From positions 22,956,001-23,020,000 of the forward strand of contig JAWQUS010000007.1 in the NCBI GenBank assembly GCA_036365455.1: a stretch of DNA of 64,000 nucleotides. Reading direction: 5' to 3'. The translations under genes and the position numbers were made by a program. Shown piece after piece: positions 12,677-62,747 of the stretch. The stretch comes from Macrosoma leucophasiata (lineage: Eukaryota > Arthropoda > Insecta > Lepidoptera > Hedylidae). Each line of letters starts with the position of its first letter. Position 1 is the first letter of the stretch. Under the pieces are notes generated by a model, which did not search any database, was not told the origin of the DNA, and worked only from the letters and a program-made list of their open reading frames with translations.

Positions 12677-12912
12677 TCAATCTGGAACTTTGATTTCGAC
12701 CCATATGGGGCAGAATGGGGAAGCGGGGCCGCCCCACGACCAGCCTCGTGGGATTGCTAGATGACTCAAGCCAGATTTAACTGCGCCCGCGTACCCGTTA
12801 AAACTAGATTTGTCTATGGTCCCGGGACATAGAACTGTACTCTGTCCCTTTGTGTTGAGGTCGACTGTGGTCACGATGTCTTCGCTCAGCAATGACTCGC
12901 ATTTGTTTAGCG
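12677..12912 (-). CDS. EEPD1: EEPD1 exon 6, C-terminus (residues 479-556)
   Basis: The acceptor TCTATTTTCAG at 12913 precedes CGCTAAAC. The exon reads [17 protein letters not shown], then [18 protein letters not shown] and ends KVPD with TGA at 12679-12677. WSWGG-AS--CP is the signature of the EEPD1 C-terminus; the histidine expected after AS- is absent (SPF). Downstream minus-strand DNA is AT-rich, and TTTATT at 12028-12033 (AATAAA on the minus strand) is one possible poly(A) signal. Confidence 0.88.
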
Positions 12913-21900: not shown

Positions 21901-24900
21901 ACAAAATATAACCTAAAAATTCTGTGAAAATTTTAAGCGTCTACTTGCTACCGTTATTGATATCGAGCAAAAATATAGGAAAAAAAAAACATGTTTATTG
22001 TATACCCCCTTGGACCCCTTAATATTTTAATTTTCTGATTTTTAGTTATAGCGGTAACAGTAATACATCATTTGTGAAAATTTTAGCTTTCTAGCTATTA
22101 CTGTTTATGAGATAAAGCCTGGTGACAGACAAGTTTAATCGTAATCGGACCGGTAGATTTTGTGTGATGCTTGAACAAACAGACAGTCAGACAGACAGAC
22201 AAAACATTTTTCTGATCACATATTTTTGTTCGGTATCGATCTAGTAACATCCCCTGGTATTTATTTTTTCAATATTTTCAATGTACAGAATTTACACTTC
22301 TACAGTTTTATTATAAGTATAGATTATACAACCACCGTGGATCGATTGATTAGTCTGGTTGTCTGGGCGTAGATAAACAAAGTGATTCTAGAATGGTAAC
22401 GATAACCTATCTCCAACACTGATAGACAGAAATATAGGTGCATGTTTACTTGTGATGTTCAGATTGCCGAAGAGTATACAATTACTCAGATTGCATTCAT
22501 CCCAGTTAAGGAAGGTTACAACTAAATTAGTAATGGAAGTGAAATCAACAACGCAGCGGAAATAAACAACGACAAATCCGGTGATACTAGACAGATAAGA
22601 CATCGGCGTTCAATGTCAATGGGGAACTGTGTGATCAATGTCGAGGATTTTTACGATGAACTGCAGTGAATATTCTAGTTTGATGGAAAATGTTCGCATG
22701 TCATCAATTTAGGTATAGTAAATAATTTATATAATTGTACTATTTATTTTTCGCAATAACACATGCGAGTGGACTTTAGAAATTTAAAAAAAAACGGAAA
22801 GAAAAATTTGACTTCGGGCAGGAATCGAACCTGCGACCTCAGGATAACCAGTCCAGCCGCTTTCCACAGTCCCACACCGCCTTTCTCGATAAATGGACTA
22901 TCTTACACTAAAAGATTTTTTCAAATCGGTCTAGTTATTCCTATTATTATTATTTTTTTTTTAATTGTTTCACGACCACGGATTCAAGTCCTTAACAGCC
23001 CATCTTCAGTAATTTTTATCTTCATTTCTTATGATAATGAATATCCGTATGGAAGATGACGATGATTGGATGCTTCCATGTGGAATATGATGAGATGGCT
23101 CCAGTAAAGTGATGGGGACTTTACTAGGAGATTTGACGAAGTTTTGGAGGAAACATGAAAATTCACTTTTCACTTATAATATCACTTTCCTACACCCGTG
23201 AACATTATCGAATGTTTTATAATAAAAATCCCACCATTTTTACACATAAAAACGCGACTATACACAAATTTCGAAAATAATATCACGCAGCGACACAGCT
23301 GTTTTCCGCGTTCCCGCTAAAACTCCCCTATTATTATTATTAAGTATAGAAGTATAGATTCTCCCGATCAACAGAACAAAACCACCAAGAATATATATAC
23401 TCACATCGAACGTTCTCCGATCTGCCGAACTCGCCCACGAAGGCGAGCCGCAGTTTGCAGGAGAGCGCTAAATCAGCTATCGTGTTCAGTCTCGCACTGT
23501 CCTCCGCCGTGAGCTGGTCCTTGCAGTGCACGTTCACCAGGATCATCGGCCGCCCACATATCAGGAACGCTGGAAGTAATCATTAGAATAATAAAAAAAT
23601 ATTGTTTTGATTTATGACGGGACAAACCCTATCGCCCGCTAGCGGCAGTGCTTAGCTAACATGGGTGGCACCCAGGGCAGATGAGCAATAAAAAAACATG
23701 GAAATTCTTTTGTATCTTATTTCTCTATTCTCCACCGCTGTGCACGCCTATTTGCCACTGGCGCCGCCTGGTATGATAAATGCGAAAGTGAGTTTTGTGT
23801 TGCGCTTTCACGTCTATACAGTTCAAATTTGGCTTATTTAGAGAGGGTGTCACCCCCAAGTGGGTGGCACCCGGTGCGGGTCTCCCTCTAGCTACGCCAC
23901 TAGTGGAGAATTATTTCGCTAGAGCAGTCAGTCATCTCAATAATAGGGGGTCAAACCATTCCAATCACTACTAATATTATAATTGCGAAAGTAACTCTGT
24001 CTGTCTGTCACCTATTCACGTCCAAACGACTGAACCGATTTTAATGAAATTTGGCACAGAGATAGAGCTGACCTTGAGAAAGTACATAGGCTACTTAGTT
24101 ATTAATAAAACGACTTCCACGCGGGCGAAGCCGCGGGCAACAAACAGCTAGTAAGCAATAAATACAATATAACGCGGGAAAACAGGGCCACTGCGATCGC
24201 CAGTCATAAAAAGTCCAATATTGCCAACGGATTCTTAGCTACGTCCGTGAAATCAAACACTTGTGGTTGTGAAATAAACCAATCCGTACCTATCACAGAC
24301 TCGTTTCCGCTTCTAAATATGTACTAGGTCTTTCTCCGAAAAACTAACGTTTCATTTCTAATTTTATTTTGCTAAAGTAATCGAATCGATAATGGCATGC
24401 TAATTAAATTGAAAGAGAACGAAATCGATTTCTAATTTTGTTGAGTAGGCGGCCTACTGTTGAACGTCCAGACAAATCAATATTAGGTAAATAAATAACA
24501 ATGTCTCCTCCAAAATATATTTGGATTCTGATGCTTCAAAATTTTGAAGAAAGATCTTGTAAATTTTTTTCATCAGGTCGAAATGATCGAAGGTTTGGTG
24601 GCAAACACACTTGCAGTTCACACTAAAGATTATATGTTTACACGGATATAAATATGTACCTATACATCCGTGTAAACAGATAACACAGAAACCGAACGCC
24701 AATGCAGGTGTGGTGCCACTTGAGGCCTAATTTGTTATGCCTCTGTGACATACGGAGGCATAAAGAATGCAGCTAAATCTCTTCAAAAACGATTAAAGCG
24801 TCATTGGATACTTGTTTCTGAGACCAATCATCGCTGTGGTGCGCCTCTAGGTCACAACTGTTAGCCCAAAGTGCTAAAACTGGACGGGCAATTTGTAACA

Positions 24901-39900: not shown

Positions 39901-42900
39901 TGTATAATAATATGTTTACTATATTTTAACATTATCGGTATATATACGTAATATATATGTAAAAAATATTCATTGTAAACATTTATTTTTATGTATGGTA
40001 TAATAAGAATATATGTATAATTATCGTAAATATGCTATATTATTTGTCCTGACAAAATATGTAAGTAAGTATATATAGTTAACCATTATTAATTTAATTT
40101 GTTTAATTATTAATTTAATTTGTTTGATCTGCTTGACATCCGTGAAACACCAGGGTCCCAGATGAAAATCAGCGTCAAGTCGATTGATGTGATCGACTTG
40201 ACATGAAGCTGATCTGGGCTCCCATTTGGACCAGCCGTGAGACTTAATCTCTTTTTTTTTTTCCTTTTTTAATTGTTATTGTTTTTGCTTTTTGTTTAAT
40301 TGTACCTGTGTACCAATCGTCTGGCAATTTGTATCGTCATGTCTCTGTGCTGTCCAAATAAATATTTTCTTTTCTTTTCTTTTCTTTTTTTATACTATGT
40401 ATGAACTTGTAATAAAATCTCTTTGGCTGTAGTATTTGTATCTGGCTGGTTTTAGTATCATTGAAAGTTAAAATTTTAAAGAACATAATTCCAAATTCAA
40501 TTTAGGCAAATGTGTGATTTTCATTTGTTTTTCGTACTGTCAAGATTAGTGAATCTAATGAAGAAATTCGATACATTTTAAAATTTTACTACAAAAAAAG
40601 GGTAAAAATGTCACGCAAGCCGCGAAAAAATTTTGCGATGTTTATGGACCTAGTGCAGTGTCTGTGAGAGTAGCACAAATTTGGTTTAAGCGTTTTCAAT
40701 CCGGAAATTTTGATGTCAAAGATGCATCTCGCTCTGGTCGCCCTATTACGGATAAAATGGATGCCATTTTTGAAAAAGTGGAGCAAGATCGACATATCAG
40801 TAGTTACGACGTAGCTGAAGAACTAAGAATTGATCACAAAACAGTTTTGGCGCATTTGAAAAAAGCTGGGTACAAAAAAAAAGCTCGATATTTGGGTACC
40901 TCACGAGCTCACTGAAAGAAACCTAATGAACCGTGTACTCATTTGTGATTCTTTATTACGACGTAATGAAACCGAATCATTTTTGAAGAAGCTGATATCT
41001 GGTGATGAAAAGTGGATCACGTACGACAAGAACGTGCGAAAAAGGTCGTGGTCAAAGGCCGGTCAGGCTTCACAGACTGTGGCGAAACCCGGGTTAACTC
41101 GCAATAAGGTGATGTTGTGTGTGTGGTGGGATTGGAAGGGCATTATTAATTATGAGCTATTACCACCAGGCAGGACTATCGATTCTAAACTCTACTGCGA
41201 ACAACTGATGTGATTAAAGCAAGAAGTTGAGAGAAAGCGGCCGGAATTGATCAACAGAAGGGGTGTGGTGTTTCATCATGATAACGCTAGACCTCACACA
41301 TCTATAGCCACTCAGCAAAAATTAAGAGAGTTTGGCTGGGAGGTGTTAATGCATCCGCCGTATAGACCTGACCTTGCACCTTCAGATTTCCACCTGTTTC
41401 GGTCTCTTCAGAATTCTTTATGCAATGTTAGGTTAACATCACGAGAGGACTGCCAAATCCACTTGTCGCGGTATTTTGATGAGAAGTCCCAAAATGTTTA
41501 TAGCAATGGGATCATGTCCCTACCTACAAGATGGCAAAAGGTTATCGAACAAAATGGTACATACATACTTTAGTTAAATTTAAATAAACTATGTTAAAAA
41601 ATATTTTGAATTCTCTTAAAAAATGCGAAGAAACTTTTTCCCCAACCTAATAGTTTTAAACTAAGTATACCTTTTAAAATAAAACTTGCATTGACAACCT
41701 TAATCCGCGAAGGTACTTACTTTATTTTTATTTTTGTATGTCATGAAATGGCAGACAAGCGGGTCACTAGTCACTAGTGTTGCCAGGTCCGATTTGTTTT
41801 AAAACGGGACAGTAGGTAAAATAAATCGGGCACAGGGGTAGAAATCGGGACAGTAAAAAGCAAACCATTTAATTAATTTATTGATTTATCATTAGCCTCG
41901 GGACCCACAGACGACTGATCTTTAGACAGGCTTTTATCTAGCAGTGGACGTCTTTCGGTTGAGGTTATGATGATGATTTATTTATCAGGACATTTAACGT
42001 CCTGATCAGGTTGTTAATTGGGTCTGTCCCCAGAGCCCTGAAAATCGGGACGTTCCGCGCAAAGCGGTACACCTGGCAACACTAGTAATCACTAACCTTG
42101 AGGGAGTTTTTGGCGGGAACGCGGAAAAGAGCTGTGTCGCTGCGTGTTATTATTTTCGAAATTTGTGTATAGTCGCGTTTTTATGTGTAAAAATGGTGGG
42201 ATTTTTATCATAAAGCATTCGATAACGTTCACGAGTGTAAGAAAGTGATATTTAAAAAAAAACTGACCTTGAGGCGCGCAGTGGAAACGCTCGCTGCAAA
42301 GGGTAAGAAGATTGTCCACTAGCCGTTTAACATCCTCCACCTCCGTCAGCAGGTGGAGCTGATCCAACGCCACGTCCTCTATCGTGATACCCTTATTCAC
42401 GCTCTCGTATATGAAGCCCAGGTTACCACTAGAACAAGGAAGACAATGTTAGTTTTCTAGACTATGGGTATGAGTATTTGTAAAGGTTATGTGTATGCAC
42501 TGTAACCATCGAAAAATGTCCGGTGATCCAAAACCATTGCAAATTAAACTTTATCGCCACACTTGATGTGTGTGTACCTAACTACCGTATTTTTAAAAAT
42601 ATGAGAGAATATCATAAAATTATCATAATAAATACACGTTCAATTTCAGTAAATTAAATATATTTGACATTAACTTTGAATACTACCAACAAGATAAGTC
42701 GGTCATTTTGTTAAATTTAAATGATATTTTCTTCTATTTCACGAACAATAACAATGATATGAATCTAAATTCGACGGTCATGTTATCAATTATGTCGGTT
42801 GAACATAATAAGACAAGTTAAAGATTATTTAAAATAAAATAACCTGCAATTATAATTCAATTAACACAACCAAGACACTGCAATGAATTCAGTTATTGTA

Positions 42901-54900: not shown

Positions 54901-57900
54901 AACCTAATTTTTAGGCATAGGTATTTGTAATCTAGAGAATACATATCCACTGGTTGCCAATAAAAATTTTGGCCGCAATTATTGTATTGTATTGGATGAA
55001 CGAAATGATTCTGCGGTGGGATCCCCCAGTCATTTATAGAATTGTACATTTCAAGAATCGGACAATCCTAGACTACATAGTCATTTCGCGAATCAGTCAT
55101 TCGTAGACTAAACCATCCTAACCTATTACTTCAATTTTGTTGTGATACTATACCACAGCTACCAGTGGCGGTATTTACAAATTTGCCGCCGATAGGCTAT
55201 TATTTTTTCCGCCTCTATATTATTTTGATATCGTCGTATACATATATATTTACAATCATATCAATTAGGTATATTTTCTATCAATAAAATTTCAACTTTA
55301 TGTTTTATGCTTCATAATCCTGAAGTTGAACTAAGCAACTTTTTTTCTATGGTTAGAATCATTGGGAACTACGATCTGAGCCTTGATAATTTTAACAGTA
55401 ATTTTAAAATAGAAATAAAAAAATTATGAACTAATTCTGCCCCTTAAAATTTGCCGCCCTAGGCTCCAGCCTACTCAGCCTGCTGGTAAATCCACCACTG
55501 ACCGCTACCCACGCCTATTCTTTACAGCAGATTTACTGGTGGTAGAGTTCCAAAGGGGAAATGAGACATTCTACTGATATACTTTTTACATTCGTTTATT
55601 ACATTTAGTTTTATCTTAGTGATATTCTTGACTTTACATATATTTTTATCTTGTTTGACATGTATATCAATTGTTATTCACTTTAATTTATTTTGTTTGT
55701 TTTTGACGTGTCGTAAGAGGTGCCTGTCACCCTAAATGAATAAATGAGTTTCTGATTCTGATTCCAGTACTTCCAGTGCAGGAGCTCGAGGGCGTAGGCA
55801 CCACCGCATTACCTAATCTATCTGCCGCCAAATGATAGTGTTCAGCACTATCGTGTTCAATCATTCAAAACCAAAATAAGCCAAAGCGGTCCAGCCGTTC
55901 TCGAGTTTTAAGACCTGCGCAGACGGAGTACTCTCCCCGGGATACTTTTTTATCCATCAATATAGATCTCTTATAAACTGTATGCAATAACGCACACAAA
56001 GGACTAAGAGTACCCCGAAGTCTGAGAATTTTTGTCCCCTAGGGACAAAAGTCCTTGGTCTGCGCAGGCCTTTAGCGAGACTTACGAACAGCGAACGTAA
56101 ATTCACGCCTGTAATCCCCAAAGGGGTAGGCAGAGGTAAATGAATGCATTCAAGCATACATGCAAATACCCACGATTCGCCGGTTACGTTTTGGTTGGCC
56201 CATGTAACAGGTGGCGAGTCTGTTGCCATCTCCATGTGCGGTACTGTGAAACTTCCAGAAAATGGAAAAATCCCGATAGAACTAGAGATAAAGGATCTTA
56301 AACCGTTATCTCTGATAGCCCCGACCCGGGAATCGAACCCAAGACCTCCAGCGTAGTAGTAGTGGCCTGCTAGCACTAGGCTACTGAGGCAGTTACGAAC
56401 AGCAATTGATTTTATCTATACATATAGAAGATACACACATTTTATTCATTGGAATTCGCCAAAGAAACATCTCAACCTGAAATGCACTAACTATTCCACT
56501 CGCTTATCAGAGCCTTTCAACGTTATCAGTATCGAATACCTTAGTCGAATTACTTAGACGTTTTATTAATGTAGGTGTTTCTTTTATTTAATGGACCTAC
56601 ATGTAAATGTAGTTTTAATTTGAACTGAATTCGATAATTTTAAATTAATTCACAATTAGCATGCAATGCCGCAGAATATATATTTTTTCTTTATTATTAA
56701 AAAAACGCAAATCTTAATTTATGAATAGTCATCACAGGATGTCAAGTTTTTTTCAGATATTAGGACTTGACTTATTTGTAGTCTTAAGAGTATTTCCGAT
56801 ATTTTTTTAAATTCAAGACAATTTTTTTTTTCACATTTTTCTAATAACTGTCATGACTTGGTCCTTATCGCCCGTTTTCGGTATAGCGTTGATTTCTGGG
56901 ACACCCTGTATATGTAAAAAGACTGCTGACGATTGAACCAGGTTGCACCGGTCGTGGTCGTGTCAATCAAGATAAATTGCATGATTGCGCTGCTTTAAAC
57001 CCTATATAGGTGCATTCGATTATTCCACATGCATACAGCTCATTCAATGGTAGCAACATTTTTTGTCTCATGAAAATGACAAACCGGTAAATACAATCAA
57101 CATTGATGACAAATGGACAGCCTTAATGTATTTACATAAAAACTATAGGTCTTATCAATGGACCCTAATTTTAGGTATTTAGACATACTAAGACGTCATG
57201 AGAACGTCGTCGGCTGCAGTATTAAAATGTAGTTCCTCAGTCAAGTAGGTAAGCTAAGGAATGTCGCCACACCGTGTTGACTGCTTGGATAAGCTGGCGA
57301 TCGACTTAAGCATCTGGATGAGCTAAAGCCGTTATTGCGTAAACCGTAAAATACAATAAGACAACTTTATAGGTATCTCTACACAACATAAAACACTACT
57401 CACCAGTCAGCATACGGTGAGACACAGTACTCCCACCTATGACTGCCGGACCTCCACTCACGGACCCGCCTCAGGGTGGGAGAATTGAGCTCGTCACAGA
57501 TCATCTTTAACGCGACCTCTTCTAACACGTCCTGCACGGCCACTAAGGATATCCTGGCAAAAGCAGTGAGTGCTATTAATCTTCCATATCAAAAAGGTTC
57601 CCATAACATTAGAACTGCGCTTGCGTCCTGACTACCGAACAATATAGGTAAACTGTTCTGCGGTCTTACCCGCCTAAATAATTACGTCTATGATTTTTCT
57701 TATCTTTGCTTGGTCTCGTCTCCTATGAGACCAATAGCGTAGCGTCTCAGAATCCAAACTGATGATTAGGAAATATAGCTTCTCCTTTCAGAATTATTAT
57801 TGATTGAAGTTTCGAGTTCAAAGCTCAAGTTCTAAGCTCAGGCAAATTCTCTCAAAGAGTTTGGACATTATTAGAAGAAGGTTGATTGGTCTGTAGGAAC

Positions 57901-60900
57901 AGTAGTAGAGGTCGGTGGGAAAAACAACACGCACCGAACACCGTCCTTAGTCCCGTCTGTACTAATCTTTCGTATCAAAAAGTTTCTCATAGCATTCGAA
58001 CTGCGTCTTTCTCGACCGCTTAAATGGGTTGGTGACATGCAAGGCAAAAGCAAGCTACATGTGATTGGGCGAAATGAAAACTATGTTGTATGTCGATTAA
58101 ATGAATAAAGGATAGCCGAATATTGACGAGAGGATGCCAGGTTTTTTCTGCTGTTATTTTATTTTTCATACCTATTCTAAATTACGGATTATTTGCGAAA
58201 AATTAAAAAACTGTTGGGGAATTTACCCTAAACAAATGATATCCAGACAAAAATACATTTATTTGGTAATCACAGATAGGGTTTTAATTATTGTCAGTCA
58301 GAAAAGTCTGTCTCATCTGCCTAGCTGACAAATACAAACCTATTGAGGAATACTAGATACTTTGTACTTCTATTTTAAGAATCCTAACAATTCACAGCAT
58401 ATCTTAAATTTAAACTATGCAACTATTCTGGATCTGGATGTATGTAAACACATCTTCATAATTTATGAAGGTACATCATACTATCATACATAATATGTAG
58501 GATTTATCTAATCAACAATCTGATACTATAATTAGCTCCAGATGTAATCTTTGTTTGTGTTTAATAAACAAGATGGAATGTTTTATGACTTGAATAATTT
58601 ATAATTTTGTGATATTAGAACAAACATAAGCTTGAACCTGAATTTTCCAGCAATATTTTAACATGTTTACAGGTAGAATTATTACATTTTAATGGAGATA
58701 TCCTTGAAAGTGCAGATTTTATCGCAATATTTGAGCATTTATTTAAGATATTCATGCTGATTATAAAAGATTCAATTGTATGATTAAAGAAATATAAATT
58801 AAGAATAGGTGTTTTAGATTCAATGCCATGAAATGCAGACAAAAAATTATATATTCATTTACGAGACCTCAAACAAGCTACTGGGAATTTTATTATAAGA
58901 TACCCATATCACATTTTGAAAAAAAAGTCTGTCCGCCATCTTGGATCTGAAAATGGATGCCATTTTCGTAATCAGCACCCCAAGAAACCTCGAAATTGAT
59001 ACCCATATCACATTTTGAAGAAAAAATCTGTCCGCCATCTTGGATCTGAAAACGGATGCCATTTTCGTAATCATCACCCCAAGAAACCTCGAAATTGATA
59101 CCCATATCATATTTTTAAAAAAATCTGTTCGCCATCTTGGATTAGAAAAATGCACCTCAGGAAACCGTGAAATAGAAATCCATATCATATTTTCTAAAAA
59201 TAATTATGTCCGCCATCTTTGACTTGAATGGAGATACCATTTTCGTAATTAACACCTCAAGGAACCCTAACATTGAACGGAACCTCGCTGTAGAATACCA
59301 TTCCGTTGCCAAAAGAGGAGGGAGGATGGGTGAGGCGGGGAAATCGGGCGGGATGTCGAAGTGTCCATTCTATACGTATTGTAGGCGACGCACTATACTA
59401 AATTAAATATCTTAAGTGTTTTCTAAATTTTATATGTCTGTATATATGTCATAATGTTTATCTGGCTCTACTACCATACATTACCGCTATCACTTAGCGC
59501 CAGGTAACTGGCTAACGACATGGGGTAAGGGACAGACCAGGGGAGATACATTTTTCATGTTTCAGTCGCTATTGTGACTAAATTAAATACATTTCACTGG
59601 TGAATTTTAGTGACCTTATAAAAGGTAGTAAGTTTAAAGATCTCACTGCTTTATTTCAAATTAATAAAGTATTTTTTTAATAAATTTTATCATTGCCATT
59701 GAAAATACCTCTTAACTTAGAATCACCCATATATATGTATGTATCTTCACATCACGCCCCTTACTGAGTAGCCAAAGGGTGAGGAGCGCCAGATATCCCT
59801 GTCCTGACACAGCTCCCATTCTTCTACATGCATGATTTTATTCATACATGACTTTAGTCTAAATTATTATATTATACAATTATTATATACTCACTTATTT
59901 TCTAAAATCGTTCTGCAAACTACTTCTCTGACACCAGGATTCGTGATCTTATCCATACTAAGCTGATGAAGGTTCCAGGAAGCGAGACGGCAACATTTCA
60001 CACCATCTCTTTCATACGTAAACACCTCTTCAACAACAGGTCGGTGCGAATACGCTGATAATAAATCTAGTATATCATTCACAGGGGCTGTTGCGAAACC
60101 ATTTGGCAACATAATCGTAAACTTTGGTGGCATCGACAAGCTTTTTCTGTGTGGAGTCTTTGGTGTCTTTGATTCACTACTTAACAGAGATCCATTTAAT
60201 GAGGAATCTGTCCATCCATTGACATGGCCGTTCGTTAAGTGCTGCACACTCTCACACTTACGGGGTTCTAGGCTTAAGTGGTGTTTAACTGTACTCAATC
60301 TTATAATATCCATTCCCCTGACTTTTATTAAGTCGTCCAGGGATTTAAAGGGGCCCTTTTTGTTGCGATAATCAACTATGTTCGCAGCAATTTCCTGGTT
60401 AAGTCCGGGCACGCATTGAAGTTGAAATACACTAGATGAGTTTACAGAACATAATCTATTTTCTGATGATAATCGTATACTGTCCAGTGAGTGTGCACAG
60501 GAACTAGCTCTAGATATCTGACGTCTTGTGTTTGTACATATCTCTGGTCTAAGTAACTCTAGTTTTTCAGCACCAATACCTAAAATGTGATACTTAGTGT
60601 TAATAAATGAAGGATCATCGTTGTGATATGCAATTTTAATGTTTGTAAAATTAAGTCATATTGTTACATACAGAAAGCCAAATGCCACAAAAGGAAATTG
60701 TAAAATTGTTTTGGAGAACTCATCACAGTAACAATTAAAGTCTACAGTAACAATTACATCACAGTAACAATTAAAATCAGTATTTACAAGAAACTTTTAA
60801 CATGTTCAAAAGCAATCCTTAGGAACAGAAAGTAATGATGATACCTTATAAAAATAAATTATTTATCAAAACGTATACCTAACTATATTGTGAGAATATT

Positions 60901-61652
60901 CATTTAGGTACCTACATCAATTTAACTGCAAAGTTGATAAACTGGATGGATCATGTTTTTTAATCGACTTCGAAATAAGGAGGAGGTTCTCAATTCATCC
61001 GAATATTTTTTTTAAATCATTAATCACGTTAGTAGTATGATTCAATTAGTAAATGAAAACTGCAGGACTAGGGGCATTAAGATAAAACCAATGCAGGTAT
61101 ACTTAATGTCATGTACTGTCACTCGTAAGACCTACTACCTCAGCAGTTTTTGGAAATTATTTTATAGCTACATCTAGGTAATATCACTGGCAGCTTGACC
61201 ACATGAGCACCTTATAATCTGGTAATAACAGTTGAATATCATTGGTTTTGACAAAGCCCAGACTATACATTCAGGCCAAAAGTAAAAATATTCATAACAT
61301 CACTAGAAATCAGTCTACAGTTTCTAATATCCTGTTGTAATTAGCATACAAATATTTCGAACAAAGAATTGTAATCACCTGAGACCAAAGCAAGGTCGTC
61401 GACGCGTTTGAACCGGCCTATCATCTGTCTGTGGCGCACTATTTCTCTCGCCAGCTGCCGCGTCACCCCCGGCAGAGTCATCAGCTGTTCCTCCGTAGCC
61501 GTGTTCACATTCATCAGCTCAGGGTACTCCTCCGACGGCGGCAAACTAAATGTATGGCTCAGACCAGACTTATTCAACTTCGAACGCCTCACAAACCCTC
61601 TGAATGAACGCCTGCTACTCTTACTCCTCACAGAACTCGGACTCTGCCCCAT
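12677..61652 (-). CDS. EEPD1: EEPD1-like protein (two HhH regions plus EEP domain), six coding exons
   Basis: Spliced minus-strand gene with exons 61652-61379, 60579-59895, 57553-57404, 42428-42268, 23569-23405 and 12912-12677. Lengths 274, 685, 150, 161, 165 and 236 nt sum to 1671 nt, or 556 aa plus stop; human EEPD1 is about 569 aa. Every junction is GT-AG and keeps frame. Two helix-hairpin-helix regions lie at about residues 47-102 ([16 protein letters not shown]) and 142-192 ([16 protein letters not shown]). The EEP fold runs from about 285 to the end ([32 protein letters not shown]). The family acts in DNA repair and replication-fork processing, and in sterol efflux at the membrane in vertebrates. 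Sites that are usually catalytic look changed: VQD for QE, GEFG for GDF, ASPF for SEH. The start is the ATG at 61652; an MGxxxS N-terminus suggests myristoylation. A possible poly(A) signal lies at 12028-12033. Family assignment is strong; activity is doubtful. Confidence 0.9.
12945..13500. repeat. Dispersed repeat with CCGATTTGAAT core, in EEPD1 intron 5
   Basis: Starts near GCCTGTTATATCT, includes AACGGCTGGACCGATTTGAA and ends near GTGCGAAGCCGGGGCCGGTC. The interior 13100-13440 looks like a separate insertion. The same style of ends recurs at 24118-24153, 32428-32458 and 63160-63182. Class uncertain. Confidence 0.5.
14251..14487 (+). mobile_element. SINE family 1 copy, 5'-truncated
   Basis: Begins at TACCTAATTTACTTGCCGC, lacking the head, and ends CCATAACATAAAAAAAAA. 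Confidence 0.75.
14770..14891 (+). mobile_element. 3' UTR of a non-LTR retrotransposon
   Basis: Contains GACTGGGAGATAATGCC, the hairpin GGCGGACTTAATAGTCCGCC and a terminal (AATA)n run at 14871-14891, the usual end of insect jockey/CR1-like LINEs. Confidence 0.55.
14889..14964. repeat. Inverted repeat, about 32-bp arms
   Basis: Arms AATACGTACCGAATTCACAC and GTGTGAATTTCGTACGTATT, with a short AACGC loop, could form a long hairpin. It follows directly on the LINE tail. Confidence 0.6.
16046..16925 (+). pseudogene. LINE endonuclease domain (EEP, craniofacial-development-protein-2-like)
   Basis: Motifs in order: [76 protein letters not shown]. The glutamate usually found in the GISE motif is lysine here (GISK). 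The frame ends at DFGKG with TAA at 16923; a one-base shift would continue into the linker at 16946. Confidence 0.8.
16946..17305 (+). pseudogene. LINE linker region between endonuclease and RT
   Basis: Reads KQHW-like [20 protein letters not shown], then [19 protein letters not shown] and ends SDVWREYC with a stop. It is the charged region between the two enzymatic domains of RTE-like LINEs. Confidence 0.7.
17380..18271 (+). pseudogene. LINE reverse-transcriptase remnant lacking its core
   Basis: [18 protein letters not shown] is the fingers region. At about 17520 the reading jumps to [20 protein letters not shown], which normally follows the catalytic YADD/FADD motif, so the palm is deleted. 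The C-terminal part (17591-17803 and 17822-18271) reads [50 protein letters not shown] and RSPMRW-like [12 protein letters not shown] stop occurs at 17801. Confidence 0.75.
18460..19700. other. EEPD1 intron 5, no feature seen
   Basis: AT-rich. 18420-18450 (GCGGAGCCGCGGGCATCAGC) is the end of the CCGCGGGC-type dispersed repeat. Otherwise no gene or repeat is recognised. Confidence 0.4.
19715..19885 (-). repeat. tRNA-SINE family 3, body fragment
   Basis: Contains AAGGGGTAGGCAGCGATAAATGC and CACCCACGATTCGCAGG, matching 3110-3260 and 56105-56250; the tRNA-like head is missing. Confidence 0.6.
20093..20345 (-). pseudogene. RTE-like LINE 3' end
   Basis: Minus reading [18 protein letters not shown], then KALEW, is the well-known C-terminal end of lepidopteran LINE reverse transcriptases. 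The downstream part (complement of GGACAAAGGCCTCCCCC) is frame-broken. Confidence 0.65.
20600..20925 (-). mobile_element. tRNA-derived SINE (family 4)
   Basis: Minus strand: GACTGCCTCGTTGGCTCAGT (box A) then GCGGGTTCGATCCCCAGG (box B), followed by a body with CCCAGTAGTATCCCGG. A partial family 2 element precedes it at 20508-20595. Confidence 0.6.
21360..21650. repeat. Imperfect (ACC)n/(CCA)n trinucleotide repeat
   Basis: About 290 bp of degenerate CAC/ACC triplets. Open frames on both strands (proline/threonine-rich on plus, glycine/valine-rich on minus) are by-products of the repeat. Confidence 0.8.
21812..22270. repeat. Dispersed AAACCGGCCAAGTGCGAGTC repeat
   Basis: Starts AAACCGGCCAAGTGCGAGTC, includes GGGTTCCG, TACCCCCTTGG and TTTTTGTTCGG near the end. 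Fragments with GGTTCCGTACCC occur at 13965-14000 and 53930-53970. Class not assigned. Confidence 0.5.
22740..22890 (-). repeat. tRNA-like repeat related to the palindromic elements
   Basis: Contains GAAAGAAAAATTTGACTTC as at 27837-27856, then a tRNA-like segment with box B complement GGAATCGAACCTGCG, with a different anticodon-arm sequence. A single-arm relative. Confidence 0.5.
22955..23326 (-). mobile_element. SINE-like retroelement (family G) with 15-bp target duplication
   Basis: Direct repeats of CCTATTATTATTATT at 22940-22954 and 23327-23341 flank it. Read on minus, it starts GGAGTTTTAGCGGGAACGCGG and ends in poly(A). It lies 64 bp downstream of EEPD1 exon 5. Other copies at 42104-42262 (plus) and 62369-62747 (minus). 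Confidence 0.8.
23405..23569 (-). CDS. EEPD1: EEPD1 exon 5 (residues 424-479)
   Basis: The acceptor TTACTTCCAG and donor GTGAGTATAT bound a 165-nt exon reading [18 protein letters not shown] to [19 protein letters not shown] matches the LVNLH strand of EEPD1. GEFG replaces the usual GDF(N/G) motif of the family. A copy of the same retroelement family found at exon 4 lies about 60 bp into the following intron. Confidence 0.88.
23965..24153 (+). repeat. CCGCGGGC-type dispersed repeat
   Basis: Starts near CTAATATTATAATTGCGAAAG, has TCTGTCTGTC and CGACTGAACCGATTTT and ends ACGCGGGCGAAGCCGCGGGC. A very common short repeat style in Lepidoptera. Confidence 0.55.
24160..25530. other. EEPD1 intron 4, mostly unassigned
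   Basis: 24590-24760 is an old SINE family 1 relative interrupted by a hairpin (TGTTTACACGGAT ... ATCCGTGTAAACA, 24633-24677). The rest is AT-rich without supported exons. Confidence 0.4.
25538..25824 (-). mobile_element. SINE family 1 copy
   Basis: Minus copy from poly(T) and AATGTAATG at the tail to CTTACCACCAGTGAA at the head; near full length. Confidence 0.78.
26731..27090 (-). mobile_element. 5S rRNA-derived SINE
   Basis: Begins with AATAATAATAATGGC (tail) and CGTCCCACTGCTGGGC, and ends with the 5S-like head complement GTAGATCGCTTATGATCTAC. Full length, minus. Confidence 0.78.
27850..27925 (-). other. tRNA-like sequence, mirror copy
   Basis: Reverse complement of 28278-28353, in the opposite arm of the palindrome. 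Confidence 0.6.
28278..28353 (+). other. tRNA-like sequence (probably pseudo-tRNA)
   Basis: GGCTTCAGTAGCTCAATTGG ... GTTCGAGCCTCGCCTGAAGTC (split here). Acceptor stem GCTTCAG/CTGAAGT, D stem GCTC/GAGC and T stem GCGAG/CTCGC with TTCGAGC loop are intact. The anticodon arm only closes as CTGG/CCAG with a 9-nt loop, or with a mismatch, and the 37 position is odd. Likely a Pol III promoter module of a repeat rather than a working tRNA. Mirror copy at 27850-27925; third copy 36442-36517. Confidence 0.6.
29590..29755 (+). pseudogene. RTE-like LINE 3' end fragment
   Basis: GGAAAATCGCTGGATGAGGG, GGCCCCGGACCG and GGAGGAGTC with GTCCATCAG correspond to the SGWMR, DR and EAYVQQW end of LINE reverse transcriptases; frame-broken. 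Confidence 0.5.
30286..30429. repeat. Foldback element with about 60-bp arms
   Basis: Arms start GGGCGAGATTCACAGAC and its complement, and continue through CGACTTTACTTTCGAGC; the spacer is about 16 bp. It sits inside an old minus-strand SINE family 1 relative (30240-30560). Confidence 0.75.
30961..31479. mobile_element. Solo LTR, 519 bp, TATT target duplication
   Basis: Ends TGTCGGAG and CTCCGACA are inverted repeats of the TG...CA type. TATT flanks both sides (30957-30960 and 31480-31483), a 4-bp duplication as made by Gypsy-type integrases. Inside, TTATAAAATG near 31183 could be a TATA box. No internal retroviral genes remain nearby. Confidence 0.75.
31545..31620 (+). repeat. Decayed tRNA-like repeat
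   Basis: CAATGCAATAGAATGTGAAGG followed by GACTTGGGTAGCTCAGG is a divergent relative of the right arm of the 28-kb palindrome. Confidence 0.45.
32020..32150 (+). repeat. SINE family 1, 3' part
   Basis: GCAACACATCTGCATTTTG to TTCCGTACATAAAAAA; head missing. Confidence 0.6.
32260..32745 (+). repeat. Two CCGCGGGC-type dispersed repeats in tandem
   Basis: First ends CACGCGGGCGAAGCCGCGGGC at 32428-32448. The second starts AAATTGAAGTGTCTG, as at 37380 and 49580, and ends near GGAGTCGCCGGCATAGC. Confidence 0.5.
33535..33570. repeat. Perfect 16-bp inverted repeat
   Basis: ATTTAACTGGTGGTAG and CTACCACCAGTTAAAT around ACTT. The arms match the head of SINE family 1 (CTGGTGGTAG), so it may be two heads joined. 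Confidence 0.6.
34204..34781. mobile_element. hAT-type MITE, 578 bp, 8-bp target duplication
   Basis: Inverted ends TAGGGATGCAAAC and GTTTGCATCTCTA, flanked by CTTCCGAG at 34196-34203 and 34782-34789. The 8-bp duplication is typical of hAT elements. An interior tail of SINE family 2 (about 34310-34375) is a nested insertion. No transposase. Confidence 0.78.
35035..35250. repeat. One arm of the 38-kb palindromic element
   Basis: ATGGGCGACGGTTGGTATT, CTACGTGCTACGCACAC and GTCTGTGTAATAGAGACC match 38485-38580. Confidence 0.6.
35251..35546 (-). mobile_element. SINE family 1, full length
   Basis: Minus copy with a 20-nt poly(T) at 35251-35270 (poly(A) tail) and head TACCACCAT near 35546. Well preserved, so fairly recent. 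Confidence 0.82.
35760..35975 (+). repeat. SINE family 1, diverged copy
   Basis: AGTGACGAAGCCCGCAGGCG through CTATCGTGTTCTGGTC to ATATAGGCTGCAGT; old. Confidence 0.6.
36085..36545. repeat. Second palindrome with tRNA-like arms
   Basis: Right arm 36270-36545 carries an intact 76-nt tRNA-like copy (36442-36517) equal to that at 28278. The left arm keeps only 36157-36202 of it, then jumps to CCTAATAATTCTACCC. The centre holds AATTGTTTTTATATTATTT and its complement. Confidence 0.8.
37370..37690 (+). repeat. CCGCGGGC-type dispersed repeat
   Basis: AAATTGGAGTGTCTGTTTGT to CGGAGTCGCGGGCACAGC, with TCGAACGGCTGGACCGATT inside. Internal palindrome CCCGCGACTTCGTCCG/CGGACGGAGTCGCGGG. Same family at 49563-49840. 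Confidence 0.55.
38150..38705. repeat. Complex palindromic repeat cluster
   Basis: AATCGGGCGGGACGTCGAAG at 38308 and its complement near 38435-38455 flank CCGGCCGCGGCGG; arms extend to 38190 and 38620 (CACCGCGGACACTCC and GGAGTGTCCGCGGTG-like). A further hairpin, GGCTTTCCCCTCTGTCAAAG with its near-complement, spans 38630-38705. Partial copies at 35035-35250, 43130-43190, 38880-39000 and 59285-59390. Confidence 0.7.
39064..40389 (+). mobile_element. 5'-truncated non-LTR retrotransposon inserted in mariner
   Basis: TTATA at 39059-39063 and 40390-40394 is the probable target duplication. The coding end (39064-39729) reads [42 protein letters not shown] and [20 protein letters not shown], the C-terminal RT region of jockey/CR1-like LINEs, and stops at 39727. 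The 3' UTR has a strong hairpin (40151-40215, GTCAAGTCGA/TCGACTTGAC) and ends in (CTTTT)n. Confidence 0.75.
40560..41573 (+). pseudogene. mariner transposase, disrupted
   Basis: The N-terminal helix-turn-helix part reads [24 protein letters not shown]. The DD34D catalytic core is visible as [22 protein letters not shown] and LAPSDFHLF. Breaks: a frameshift in an A-run near 40590, another in an A-run near 40880, and TGA at about 41211 within [13 protein letters not shown]. About 340 residues if intact. It ends NGTYIL with a stop at 41571. Confidence 0.85.
41774..42088. repeat. Element with ACTAGTGTTGCCAGGT inverted ends
   Basis: Left end at 41774 and the complement ACCTGGCAACACTAGT at 42072-42088, with CGGGACAG/GTCCCGA-type inner repeats. 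41885-41975 is a LINE 3' remnant (GCAGTGGACGTCTTTCGG). I could not find a clean target duplication. Confidence 0.55.
42104..42262 (+). mobile_element. SINE-like retroelement (family G) abutting EEPD1 exon 4
   Basis: Starts GAGTTTTTGGCGGGAACGCGG and ends in a 9-base A-run. It is flanked by CTAACCTTGAGG (42092-42103) and CTGACCTTGAGG (42263-42274), a 12-bp target duplication with one change. The duplication contains the EEPD1 exon-4 splice donor (minus strand). It lacks the 3' half present in the 23-kb and 62-kb copies. Confidence 0.85.
42268..42428 (-). CDS. EEPD1: EEPD1 exon 4 (residues 370-424), next to a retroelement
   Basis: The acceptor CTTGTTCTAG precedes TGGTAACCTGGGC ([13 protein letters not shown]). 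The exon ends HCAPQ plus one base at CCTCAAG, before the donor GTCAGT at 42267. Five bases into the intron a poly(A)-tailed retroelement begins. Its target-site duplication recreates CCTCAAG followed by GTTAGT at 42097/42096, 171 nt further on, with the reading frame open throughout. An alternative exon 42097-42428 is therefore possible. Confidence 0.88.
42960..43067 (+). repeat. SINE family 1, 3' fragment
   Basis: TGTCTATAGGCTGCAGCC to TTGCCACTTCGATAACAT; head missing. Confidence 0.6.
43322..43662 (+). mobile_element. 5S rRNA-derived SINE
   Basis: GTGAAGCGCGCATGGCCCC start, GATGGGTGACCGCTAGTG in the 5S-like part and a CAGCAGTGGGACGT end; the ATT tail is lost. Confidence 0.75.
43690..43851 (+). 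repeat. SINE family 1, 3' part
   Basis: GGCTCAGGGGTGGCAACAC to CCTACCTTACATTAAAAAAA. Confidence 0.6.
44225..44762 (+). mobile_element. SINE family 1 interrupted by SINE family 2
   Basis: Head TTGGTGGTAG and ACCACCGCATTACC at 44225-44285, tail part 44525-44762 ending CATTACATAAAAAAAT. A minus-strand family 2 tRNA-SINE (44313-44522, box B complement GGATCGAACCCGCG, head complement AACCGGGTCG) lies between. Confidence 0.7.
45421..45631 (+). mobile_element. SINE family 1 with internal deletion
   Basis: The head is intact; CCTTAGGCCTCAG joins directly to TGAATGTGAACTGCATG, removing about 85 bp. Otherwise nearly the same as 50802-51092. Confidence 0.78.
46337..46400. repeat. Inverted repeat, about 28-bp arms
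   Basis: TAGCCTCAAAATCGTTTTAA and TTAAGACGATTTTGAGGCTA around a short loop. Confidence 0.6.
46400..48780. other. EEPD1 intron 3, no supported feature
   Basis: A 41-codon frame from ATG at 46940 ([20 protein letters not shown]) and a possible non-coding exon with acceptor at 48271 and donor GTAAGT at about 48354 were considered, but neither has support. Confidence 0.35.
48785..49030 (-). repeat. SINE family 1, diverged
   Basis: GGCAAACAAGCATACAGTTC through AACCGGAACACGATAGTG to ATGCGGTGGT; old. Confidence 0.55.
49563..49840 (+). repeat. CCGCGGGC-type dispersed repeat, 5' part
   Basis: AATTGGAGTGTCTGTTTGT to GTAACTTAGGCTACTTTTAT; same as 37380-37600. Confidence 0.55.
49964..50252 (+). mobile_element. 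SINE family 1 copy
   Basis: CTGGTGGTAGAGCTACAGTG to TTATTACATAAAAAAAAA, full length. It lies inside another dispersed repeat (49940-50490). Confidence 0.78.
50490..50665 (-). repeat. SINE family 1, diverged
   Basis: GACGCGTTGCCACCCCTG, AACCGGAACATGATAGTTC, AATGAGGTGGTC. Confidence 0.5.
50802..51092 (+). mobile_element. SINE family 1, best preserved full-length copy
   Basis: Head CTGGTGGTAGAGCTCCAGTG, body AACACTATCGTGTTCCGGTC, TGACCTTGGTCTTTGTG and tail CATTACATAAAA with a run of about 15 A. A partial head repeat (CTGGTGGTAGA) precedes it. Confidence 0.85.
51100..52200. other. EEPD1 intron 3, no supported feature
   Basis: AT-rich; short frames only. Confidence 0.4.
52204..52386. repeat. 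Minisatellite, about 33-bp unit, five to six copies
   Basis: Unit AGGTATCTTCACGCC followed by AAGTATGTGCGAGTATGT, with small differences. The unit core is the reverse complement of the 3' terminus of the LINE at 54240-54540 (GGCGTGAAGATAC). Confidence 0.75.
52531..52895 (-). mobile_element. 5S rRNA-derived SINE nested in the hAT-type element
   Basis: TAATAATAGCAAC tail, CGTCCCACTGCTGGGC, the complement of the 5S-like head (GTCACCCG... ) near 52808-52860, ending GTAGATCGCTTGCGTTC. Confidence 0.75.
53006..53070. repeat. Inverted repeat, about 28-bp arms
   Basis: AAAAATAATTAAAAGAGC and GCTCTTTTAATTATTTTT with TTTTGTAGT/ACTACAAAA inside; preceded by a (TA)n run at 52987-53002. Confidence 0.65.
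53150..53450 (+). pseudogene. LINE reverse-transcriptase palm fragment
   Basis: Reads [18 protein letters not shown] (motif A), then [20 protein letters not shown] (motif B). The motif C region reads HC, stop, TDDES where YADDS is expected, so the catalytic site is destroyed. Confidence 0.75.
54028..54202 (+). repeat. SINE family 1, 5'-truncated
   Basis: TGTACGGCCCTGCAATTG to TCATTAAATAAAAAAAAA. Confidence 0.7.
54240..54540 (+). pseudogene. LINE ORF C-terminus with simple-repeat tail
   Basis: [55 protein letters not shown] and [15 protein letters not shown] are the usual end of one insect LINE group. The tail is GATACATACATAC. Another, minus-strand end occurs at 59733-59815. Confidence 0.7.
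54780..55500. other. EEPD1 intron 3, no supported feature
   Basis: AT-rich with no recognised exon. 55160-55500 has GCCGCC-flanked text that could be an old repeat. Confidence 0.35.
55555..55765 (+). repeat. LINE 3' UTR
   Basis: GTGCCTGTCACCCTAAATG followed by AATAAATGAGTTTCTGATTC is a common LINE end with AATAAA. Confidence 0.5.
55770..55860 (+). repeat. SINE family 1, head fragment
   Basis: AGGAGCTCGAGGGCGTAGGC to TCAGCACTATCGTGTTC. Confidence 0.6.
55912..56073. repeat. Foldback element, second copy
   Basis: CCTGCGCAGACGG and GTCTGCGCAGGCC ends; the inside matches 12204-12364 in reverse orientation (ATGCAATAACGCACACAAAG). Confidence 0.65.
56102..56392 (-). mobile_element. tRNA-derived SINE (family 3), best copy
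   Basis: Minus head ACTGCCTCAGTAGCCTAGTG (box A) and TTGGGTTCGATTCCCGGG (box B); body with CCACCTGTTACATGGGCC; 3' end TTACAGGCGTGAATTT. Confidence 0.75.
56400..57400. other. EEPD1 intron 3, no supported feature
   Basis: AT-rich; nothing recognised before the exon 3 donor at 57403. Confidence 0.4.
57404..57553 (-). CDS. EEPD1: EEPD1 exon 3 (residues 320-370)
   Basis: The acceptor TTTTGCCAG and donor GTGAGTAG bound a 150-nt exon reading [20 protein letters not shown] and then [11 protein letters not shown]. The position usually occupied by the glutamate of the EEP motif QE is aspartate here (VQD). No stop occurs in the used frame. Confidence 0.88.
57560..58890. other. EEPD1 intron 2, no supported feature
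   Basis: Two similar stretches, TCTTCCATATCAAAAAGGTTCCCATAAC-like at 57578 and 57967 (broken here for length), suggest a repeat; no exon seen. Confidence 0.35.
58901..59276. repeat. Tandem repeat, 99-bp period, about four units
   Basis: Units start TACCCATATCA at 58901, 59000 and 59099, then a shortened one near 59179. Each holds CCGCCATCTTGGATC and CATTTTCGTAATCA. The 99-bp period keeps frame, which explains long open frames on both strands. Confidence 0.8.
59285..59390. repeat. Fragment of the 38-kb palindromic repeat
   Basis: GAGGCGGGGAAATCGGGCGG and GAAGTGTCCATTCTATACG match 38300-38330 and 43130-43175. Confidence 0.6.
59895..60579 (-). CDS. EEPD1: EEPD1 exon 2 (residues 92-320)
   Basis: The acceptor CATTTTAG precedes GTATTGGTGC, completing [12 protein letters not shown]. 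The exon carries a serine-rich linker, the second HhH ([31 protein letters not shown]), a low-complexity linker and the start of the EEP fold (ASWNL at about 292-295 and NPGVREVVC). It ends AAATAA before [17 protein letters not shown] is shared word for word with vertebrate EEPD1 as I remember it. Confidence 0.92.
60600..61370. other. EEPD1 intron 1
   Basis: The 799-nt intron 61378-60580; no repeat or exon recognised. Confidence 0.5.
61379..61652 (-). CDS. EEPD1: EEPD1 exon 1 (residues 1-91)
   Basis: The ATG at 61652 sits in an AAAATGG context. The exon codes a basic, serine-rich leader and the first helix-hairpin-helix ([13 protein letters not shown], then [12 protein letters not shown]). 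It ends CTCAG before the donor GTGATT at 61378, in phase 1. The leader begins MGQSPS, which fits the MGxxxS N-myristoylation pattern. An out-of-frame ATG lies a few bases upstream and would overlap the start if it is transcribed. Confidence 0.9.
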
Positions 61653-62109: not shown

Positions 62110-62336
62110 CGATGGCTACTTTACCAGAACATTTGAAATGAAGTTTTGGAGGCAAACTGAAAAGCCGTGTTTCGCACTGTTATTTTAATTCACTATACAC
62201 GGGCACTGTAATAAGCCTATATCAAACAAAATACCACCAACTTTATTTAATATAACTCAAAAATACACAAAGAAAATGAAATAAAATAAGAGCACCACAC
62301 GCCTCTTTCAAGGTTCCCGCCAAAACTCCTCGACAA
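62110..62336 (-). repeat. Old diverged family G retroelement
   Basis: Minus strand begins GGAGTTTTGGCGGGAACC and shares TTTGCCTCCAAAACTTC and GGTAAAGTAGCCATCGC-like text with the 62369-62747 copy, but differs strongly between. Confidence 0.5.
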
Positions 62337-62368: not shown

Positions 62369-62747
62369 ATTTTTTTTAATAAATAGTTTATTCATGACCA
62401 TAGATACAGAGTCTTTCAGCCGTATACATATTGAATTTCACATTTCTTTAAATTAATGAATATCCACATGGAAGATGACGATGATTAAATGCTTTCATGA
62501 GGAATATGATAAGATGGCTCCAGTAACGCGATAGGGACTTTACTAGGAGTTTTTACGAAGTTTTGGAGGCAATACGAAAAATCACTTTTCCCTTCATAAT
62601 ATCACTTTTTTACTCTCGTGAACGTTGTCGAATGCTTTATAATAAAAATCCCACCATTTTTACACATAAATACGCGACTATACACAAACTTCGAAAATAA
62701 TATCACGCAGCGACACAGCTCTTTTCCGCGTTCCCGCCAAAACTCAT
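62369..62747 (-). mobile_element. SINE-like retroelement (family G), full length, 13-bp target duplication
   Basis: CATTTCCAAATGG at 62356-62368 and 62748-62760 flank it. Minus reading: GAGTTTTGGCGGGAACGCGG start, about 379 bp, with AATAAA close to a terminal A-run. No tRNA, 5S or 7SL promoter is obvious, so it may be a retroposed transcript. Confidence 0.8.

Follow-up and report, generated by a model that had tools for sequence, protein, structure and literature searches.

How did EEPD1 (endonuclease/exonuclease/phosphatase family domain-containing protein 1) come to carry the splice donor of its fourth exon twice at this locus, and which of the two copies defines the messenger RNA? We addressed both questions within the window, that is, the whole 64-kb stretch of DNA analysed (positions 22956001-23020000 of its contig, in an assembly of 616 Mb), and with copies of the inserted element found elsewhere in the same genome.

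The six coding exons of EEPD1 on the minus strand are intact, and their joined model gives 556 residues with no internal stop in the spliced translation (Table 1). The best matches listed for this protein are 83-85% identical to it, with named full-length relatives reaching 83%, and those ranked highest all come from moths or butterflies. For alignment, 38 orthologue rows (26 Lepidoptera, 7 other insects and 5 further) were chosen from the 120 listed. The modelled domain shows the EEPD1 and DNase I fold. At an E value of 0.01, the Pfam endonuclease/exonuclease/phosphatase model matches 0 of the 38 aligned proteins. The column of the alignment that corresponds to the histidine of ASEHCPV in solved EEPD1, which we take to be the catalytic residue, is occupied by His in 8 proteins, by Phe in 18 and by Tyr in 12; activity may have been lost.

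Table 1. Positions of the EEPD1 exons and of the mobile-element features discussed in the text, numbered from the first base of the window; a slash within a sequence marks the exon-intron junction.
Feature	Position	Strand	Basis
EEPD1 exon 1 (coding part)	61379..61652	-	tblastn of six orthologues and spliced model
EEPD1 exon 2	59895..60579	-	tblastn of six orthologues and spliced model
EEPD1 exon 3	57404..57553	-	tblastn of six orthologues and spliced model
EEPD1 exon 4 to upstream (ancestral-position) donor, 161 nt	42268..42428	-	tblastn, stop-free spliced model, orthologue alignment
EEPD1 exon 5	23405..23569	-	tblastn of six orthologues and spliced model
EEPD1 exon 6, including stop	12677..12912	-	tblastn of six orthologues and spliced model
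158-nt insert, a 3'-shortened SINE-like retroposon in antisense to EEPD1	42104..42261	+	match to family copies
T9 behind upstream donor, intron +6 to +14 = antisense poly(A) tail of retroposon	42254..42262	-	run count
Right target-duplication copy = upstream donor CCTCAAG/GTCAGT (42268/42267)	42262..42274	-	sequence comparison
Left target-duplication copy = downstream donor CCTCAAG/GTTAGT (42097/42096); potential AG/GT ratchet point	42091..42103	-	sequence comparison
Landing motif TGGCAACACT, inside the MITE end; its start lies 17 nt to the left of the duplicated target	42074..42083	+	exact match
hAT-like MITE in intron 4, 310 nt; terminal repeats TAGTGTTGCCAGGT/ACCTGGCAACACTA, flanking 8-mers CTAGTCAC/GTAATCAC	41775..42084	.	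inverted ends; relatives L048, L049
Full-length retroposon copy A, A8 tail, 13-nt TSD CCATTTGGAAATG, 717 nt from exon 1	62369..62744	-	
Full-length retroposon copy B, A10 tail, 12-nt TSD AATAATAATAGG, beginning 79 nt downstream of exon 5	22952..23326	-	

At the end of exon 4, the 158-nt insert is bracketed by 13-nt repeats that differ at a single position (plus strand: ACTAACCTTGAGG on the left and ACTGACCTTGAGG on the right, 171 nt from start to start), and each repeat carries the exon end together with its donor, CCTCAAG/GTYAGT. Nine A's directly adjoin the right repeat on the plus strand; the target duplication is accordingly 12-13 nt long, the outermost A perhaps being part of the tail. 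Beyond the two copies, no 13-mer within one mismatch of CCTCAAGGTCAGT occurs on either strand of the 64-kb window. A minus-strand open reading frame from 42448 to 42092 crosses the whole insert and meets a TAG just past the downstream donor, and the donor spacing, 57 x 3, gives both donors the same phase. The preliminary description had proposed a retroelement insertion whose target duplication takes in the exon-4 end and its donor, with donors 57 codons apart and an open frame that closes just beyond the distal one; all of this agrees with what we find, the element being a multicopy repeat with an A9 tail, two longer copies in the window and 39 scored matches elsewhere in the genome. The insert is 94-95% identical to copies A and B over 145 nt. 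These longer matching copies, the A-tail and the uniqueness of the 13-mer pair point to retroposon insertion with target duplication and not to a chance repeat, and on the sequence we regard this structure as firm. At position +3 both copies of the exon-4 donor have a pyrimidine and the other four EEPD1 donors have G, so the exon-4 donor probably already had a weak +3 when the retroposon arrived; the two copies differ by a single transition.

On the plus strand the insert starts with GAGTTTTTGGCGGGAA and finishes in A's. The family to which it belongs was sampled from 1835 first-look genomic candidates, 40 of which were scored; 39 copies outside the window and the three within it make up the 42 examined. 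These 39 were among the 40 best-scored of the 1835, and the choice depended on their resemblance to the insert and took no account of their flanks. Target-site duplications (TSDs) of 9-17 nt, with one mismatch permitted from 10 nt up, are present at 37 of the 42 copies; none was detected at the other five (L016, L022, L029, L030 and L047), which were excluded from the motif count given below. Among measured copies, 36 of 37 are 350-396 nt long and end in poly(A). The exon-4 copy is the exception, consisting of the family's first ~150 nt followed by the tail, and perhaps derived from a prematurely polyadenylated RNA. At the 3' end most genomic copies are like copy A, and that of copy B has diverged. 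As in SINEs, the family is short and multicopy, with no long frame of its own (no open frame of at least 90 residues on the sense strand of copies A and B), TSDs that vary in sequence and a tail rich in A. We use the label 'SINE-like' because Rfam at gathering score gave no match anywhere in the window, yet a diverged Pol III head could escape such detection. Two partial matches to the retroposon (65 nt) occur in 200 kb of other genome sequence, and, as expected of an insect repeat, viral and prokaryotic contigs contain no exact match to pieces of the element.

Several further elements were noted alongside this family. The sequence at 62194-62325, just beyond copy A and upstream of exon 1, is related to the retroposon but diverged from it (67% over 137 columns), and a non-LTR retrotransposon endonuclease domain (PF03372, PF14529) is found at 15996-16925. 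Of the three window copies, two have an exon edge no more than 79 nt away, for which random placement gives P 0.009, a post hoc value on which no claim of clustering is based. By eye, copy L016 (G000:C10:10467714-10468863) turns after ~260 nt into sequence like the transposase end at 41214-41573, and L010, L011, L025 and L044 appear to be tandem copies, one at another's tail, as if the tail region, too, could serve as a target.

The left flanks of the copies reveal a preferred target. We looked for TGGCAACACT in the 24 nt that adjoin the TSD edge on its left, tolerating no more than two mismatches. Before removal of likely duplicates, 24 of the 37 TSD-bearing copies have the motif; with L011, L017 and L043 removed as likely duplicates of one event, it is present in 22 of 34 non-redundant copies, 8 of them exact. 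Setting aside the exon-4 copy leaves 21 of 33, with the motif at -18 in 13 and at -15, -17, -19 or -20 in the others. Controls gave far lower counts: 2/34 for right flanks, 1/34 for the reverse motif, a mean of 0.2 and a maximum of 2 for shuffled flanks, 9/1032 for other windows of the same flanks (Fisher 2e-32 against 24/37) and 98/16640 windows (0.6%) for random genome sequence, 200 kb of which contains no exact TGGCAACACT on either strand. Retroposon copies thus insert selectively, as a statistical preference, with a usual offset of ~18 nt from TGGCAACACT; because the motif is absent from 12 of the 34 non-redundant copies, copies A and B included, the selectivity falls short of a fixed rule. 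Inspected by eye, the copies without a TSD divide into L016 and L029, which have motif-like flanks, L030 and L047, which do not, and L022, which has just AACACT further left.

At exon 4 this motif is supplied by another mobile element. Past the second donor, intron 4 enters a MITE within a few bases. The window has just two exact occurrences of TGGCAACACT, one in either end of this MITE, which we take to be of hAT type. The element is short, with inverted termini and a length into which a transposase would not fit, and both of its ends are also found at L048 and L049. Its flanking 8-mers agree at 6 of 8 positions in EEPD1 intron 4; by eye, those at L027/L049 (GTAGCGTA/GTAGCATA) agree at 7 of 8 and those at L020/L048 show no agreement. 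Relatives of the MITE, 80-86% identical over the aligned parts, adjoin retroposon copies L020 and L027 at the same end and in the same orientation, with both inverted ends visible; the left flank of L037 has just 49 internal nt in common with the MITE. A search of 200 kb from elsewhere in the genome found no MITE copy. The exact motif at -17 within the MITE end, together with the same family beside two other copies, suggests that the MITE end probably served as a landing pad, which would mean that the MITE came first and the retroposon second. A flanking octamer that begins at about +5, combined with the usual offset, would also explain why the target duplication covers the donor from -7 to +6. 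Statistically, the landing-pad account has good support, on a base of 42 copies, one genome and one MITE family seen three times. Intron 4 also contains, near the MITE at 40562-41573, pieces of a mariner-type transposase in two frames, the first of which matches the Pfam Mos1 HTH model, the rest having been recognised by eye.

Other histories of the duplicated donor can be weighed against these observations. Had there been no insertion, the second donor-like 13-mer would be a chance match, and the general donor consensus does overlap 9 of the 13 positions of the exon-4 donor 13-mer; however, the edges of the insert are the 5' end of the repeat and its A-tail, and the unique 13-mer pair, the repeat identity and the tail together rule out a chance origin for the second copy, leaving this reading with practically no credence. 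It is conceivable, but on our assessment improbable, that the retroposon struck the donor at random and has the MITE as a coincidental neighbour. Both are repeats within a transposon-rich intron, and a motif missing from a third or so of copies leaves room for such an event; against it speak the two more copies at the same MITE end and an exact motif placed where the family usually has it. A different concern is that the insertion might be a rare or young allele of the sequenced individual, with minor effect on the species. Compared with the majority of 40/41 comparable copies, the exon-4 copy differs at 2/145 sites, each difference being common to two other copies, and with so few differences the insertion may be young, bearing in mind that the comparison set was chosen by similarity. 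An old age had been considered from private substitutions among three copies, and was dropped because neither difference is private among the 40/41. The one mismatch between the target copies nevertheless suggests some age, and we judge the young-allele reading unlikely, while giving it real weight.

Which donor would then be used? Since the tail adjoins the right-hand target copy and the insertion is antisense, a T-run follows the upstream donor. This is a rare configuration: T9 within +5..+18 is found at 8 of 3869 minus-strand GT sites, the upstream exon-4 donor among them. In human minigenes, a pyrimidine tract keeps an upstream donor in use even against a stronger downstream one, via TIA proteins; the effective tracts are 3-9 nt long, and the Drosophila TIA homologue is Rox8 (PMC2766253). 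If the T9 acts as an enhancer of this type, the upstream donor should be the one mainly used and the mRNA should be unchanged, an expectation that we hold with moderate confidence. Against it, U1 pairing is slightly better downstream, with duplex energies of -6.5 kcal/mol for the upstream and -7.5 kcal/mol for the downstream donor (-7.4 to -10.8 for the other EEPD1 donors). Between equal donors, the choice often falls on whichever is closer to the 3' splice site.

The preliminary description had raised a 57-residue isoform as possible; our results do not support its being likely. Use of both donors, with a substantial share of the mRNA carrying the 57-codon extension as a new EEPD1 isoform, would be allowed by the common phase, by an extension free of stops and by the at least equal U1 pairing of the downstream donor. 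The frame is weak evidence of use, however, because 436 of 5000 dinucleotide shuffles are also open and so is the antisense frame of sister copy A (copy B has one stop near the end); taking the open frame as a sign of selection is unsupported, since copy A shares it. The extension would also split the core beta-strand 418-427 of the EEP domain, inside which the junction lies in the structure model (block pLDDT 91-93), and the T9 stands beside the upstream donor. No residue separates the exon-4 from the exon-5 columns in any of the 38 aligned orthologues, so the upstream donor should yield the ancestral protein. A wider check covered homologues of which 93 listed proteins span the junction and 26 do not: at 12 residues or less from the junction, 89 of the 93 show no more than 4 additional residues and four show 16-33, with no 57-residue insertion near the junction and none longer than 33 among these 93. 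The four (P0040, P0103, P0042 and P0080) may represent gene-model errors or real variation; they add something to the case for an isoform, as they imply that either the junction region tolerates length change or gene models err. A search with the insert peptide returned no word-sharing protein among candidates whose length was 0.55-1.75 times that of the query, in a database from which the host species is seemingly absent. Taken together, a 57-residue isoform is possible but doubtful, and its making up a substantial share of the mRNA seems to us rather unlikely. It is also imaginable that the 171-nt insert leaves first as a GT-AG intron, in the manner of a ratchet or twin intron, with the donor regenerated for removal of the 18.5-kb remainder of intron 4. 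The duplication itself provides the GT...AG ends, the left copy reading CTCAAG/GTTAGT; 11 of the 17 positions before the AG are pyrimidines, which equals the level of the exon-5 acceptor and is reached by 19% of 1970 intronic AGs; and the host intron is long, as at Drosophila ratchet points (PMC8605326). But T occupies just 2 of the 17 tract positions, the acceptor is AAG and not CAG or TAG, two further AGs lie within 45 nt upstream, no branch point is convincing by eye, and equal scores occur at 26 of 139 AG/GT sites of the EEPD1 introns. We regard such two-step removal, which would yield an identical mRNA, as very improbable.

The account that we favour instead, and consider fairly probable as a whole, combines a MITE-guided landing, a duplicated donor, an upstream donor protected by its T-run and an unchanged protein. 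A hAT-like MITE would have inserted at about +5 of EEPD1 intron 4, so that its terminal TGGCAACACT came to stand no more than 17 nt from the exon-4 donor region. Next, a polyadenylated SINE-like retroposon with a statistical preference for sites ~18 nt from this motif would have landed there, antisense and from a 3'-shortened RNA; the tail and the duplication suggest insertion by target-primed reverse transcription. The resulting duplication of 12-13 nt spans the exon end and donor and so copied the donor, and the antisense tail at the right-hand target copy has left a T-run behind the upstream donor. This run could recruit a TIA1/Rox8-type factor and U1 to that donor, in which case the insert would leave with intron 4, the EEPD1 protein would stay the same and the downstream donor would be minor or silent.

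A splice-site duplication is easily seen as an accident. Here its place has a likely cause, the motif at the MITE end, and the mildness of the insertion also has a likely cause, the antisense tail acting as a U-tract. Both causes are general, and they raise the questions of how frequently the family occurs at MITE ends near exons and of how antisense compare with sense copies at donors. We tentatively suggest, as a generalisation that may well not hold, that ends of this MITE family are landing pads that steer the retroposon to a predictable offset, that antisense landings are self-neutralising and that the lineage in this way seeds spare donors in long introns harmlessly. Were the landing-pad reading true, a MITE beside an exon would fix the next retroposon at a predictable offset, in this instance on a splice donor; were the self-neutralising reading true, the duplication would keep the donor, the tail would give a TIA-type U-tract and the left copy would be an AG/GT ratchet point. 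The locus also provides two naturally competing donors, almost identical and separated by 171 nt, that differ by one base of the 13-mer and by the T-tract.

Splice sites derived from target duplications have published relatives (PMC7349775, PMC9860276). The canine merle SINE at the boundary of PMEL intron 10 and exon 11 is, like the EEPD1 insert, an antisense SINE at an exon-intron boundary, and it likewise combines a target duplication at a splice site (15 bp) with a tail poly(T) that affects splicing (PMC7349775). The site concerned in merle is an acceptor, the original one apparently residing in the copy by exon 11, whereas in EEPD1 both copies contain a full donor; and the long merle tail disturbs splicing, whereas the EEPD1 tail is predicted to protect it (PMC7349775). 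Introners are also mobile elements that obtain splice sites from the target duplication, but they create new introns and mostly bear signs of DNA transposition, in contrast to the single retroposon that has duplicated an existing donor here (PMC9860276). The parallel for donor choice comes from TIA-dependent Alu exons, which have two donors, a tract behind the upstream one and a preference for the upstream one, a preference that in EEPD1 is predicted; the tract there is internal to the Alu and was studied in human cells, while in EEPD1 it comes from the tail of a retroposon that an insect gene carries in antisense, with a predicted role (PMC2766253).

Drosophila recursive ratchet points share with this locus an AG/GT in a long intron, the EEPD1 acceptor being weak and its ratchet role putative (PMC8605326). 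Fungal [D1,2] stwintrons resemble EEPD1 in having an internal unit within the donor of the outer intron; their donor is split between nucleotides 1 and 2 and the study reports no signs of target duplication, whereas EEPD1 has a retroposon with one (PMC12403724). The lepidopteran elements HaSE1-3 are short retroposons like the EEPD1 insert, with duplications of 5-18 bp in HaSE1; the heads of HaSE1 and HaSE2 are related to tRNA and that of HaSE3 to 5S, in contrast to the present family, which has a poly(A) end and no such Rfam match at gathering score (PMC3272025). Among the matches listed from the open-licence literature, we recognised no case of a donor duplicated by a retroelement and combined with a protective antisense tail, which is weak evidence of absence. 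As far as the listed matches on donor duplication showed, what is new at EEPD1 would be the guided landing together with the protective antisense tail.
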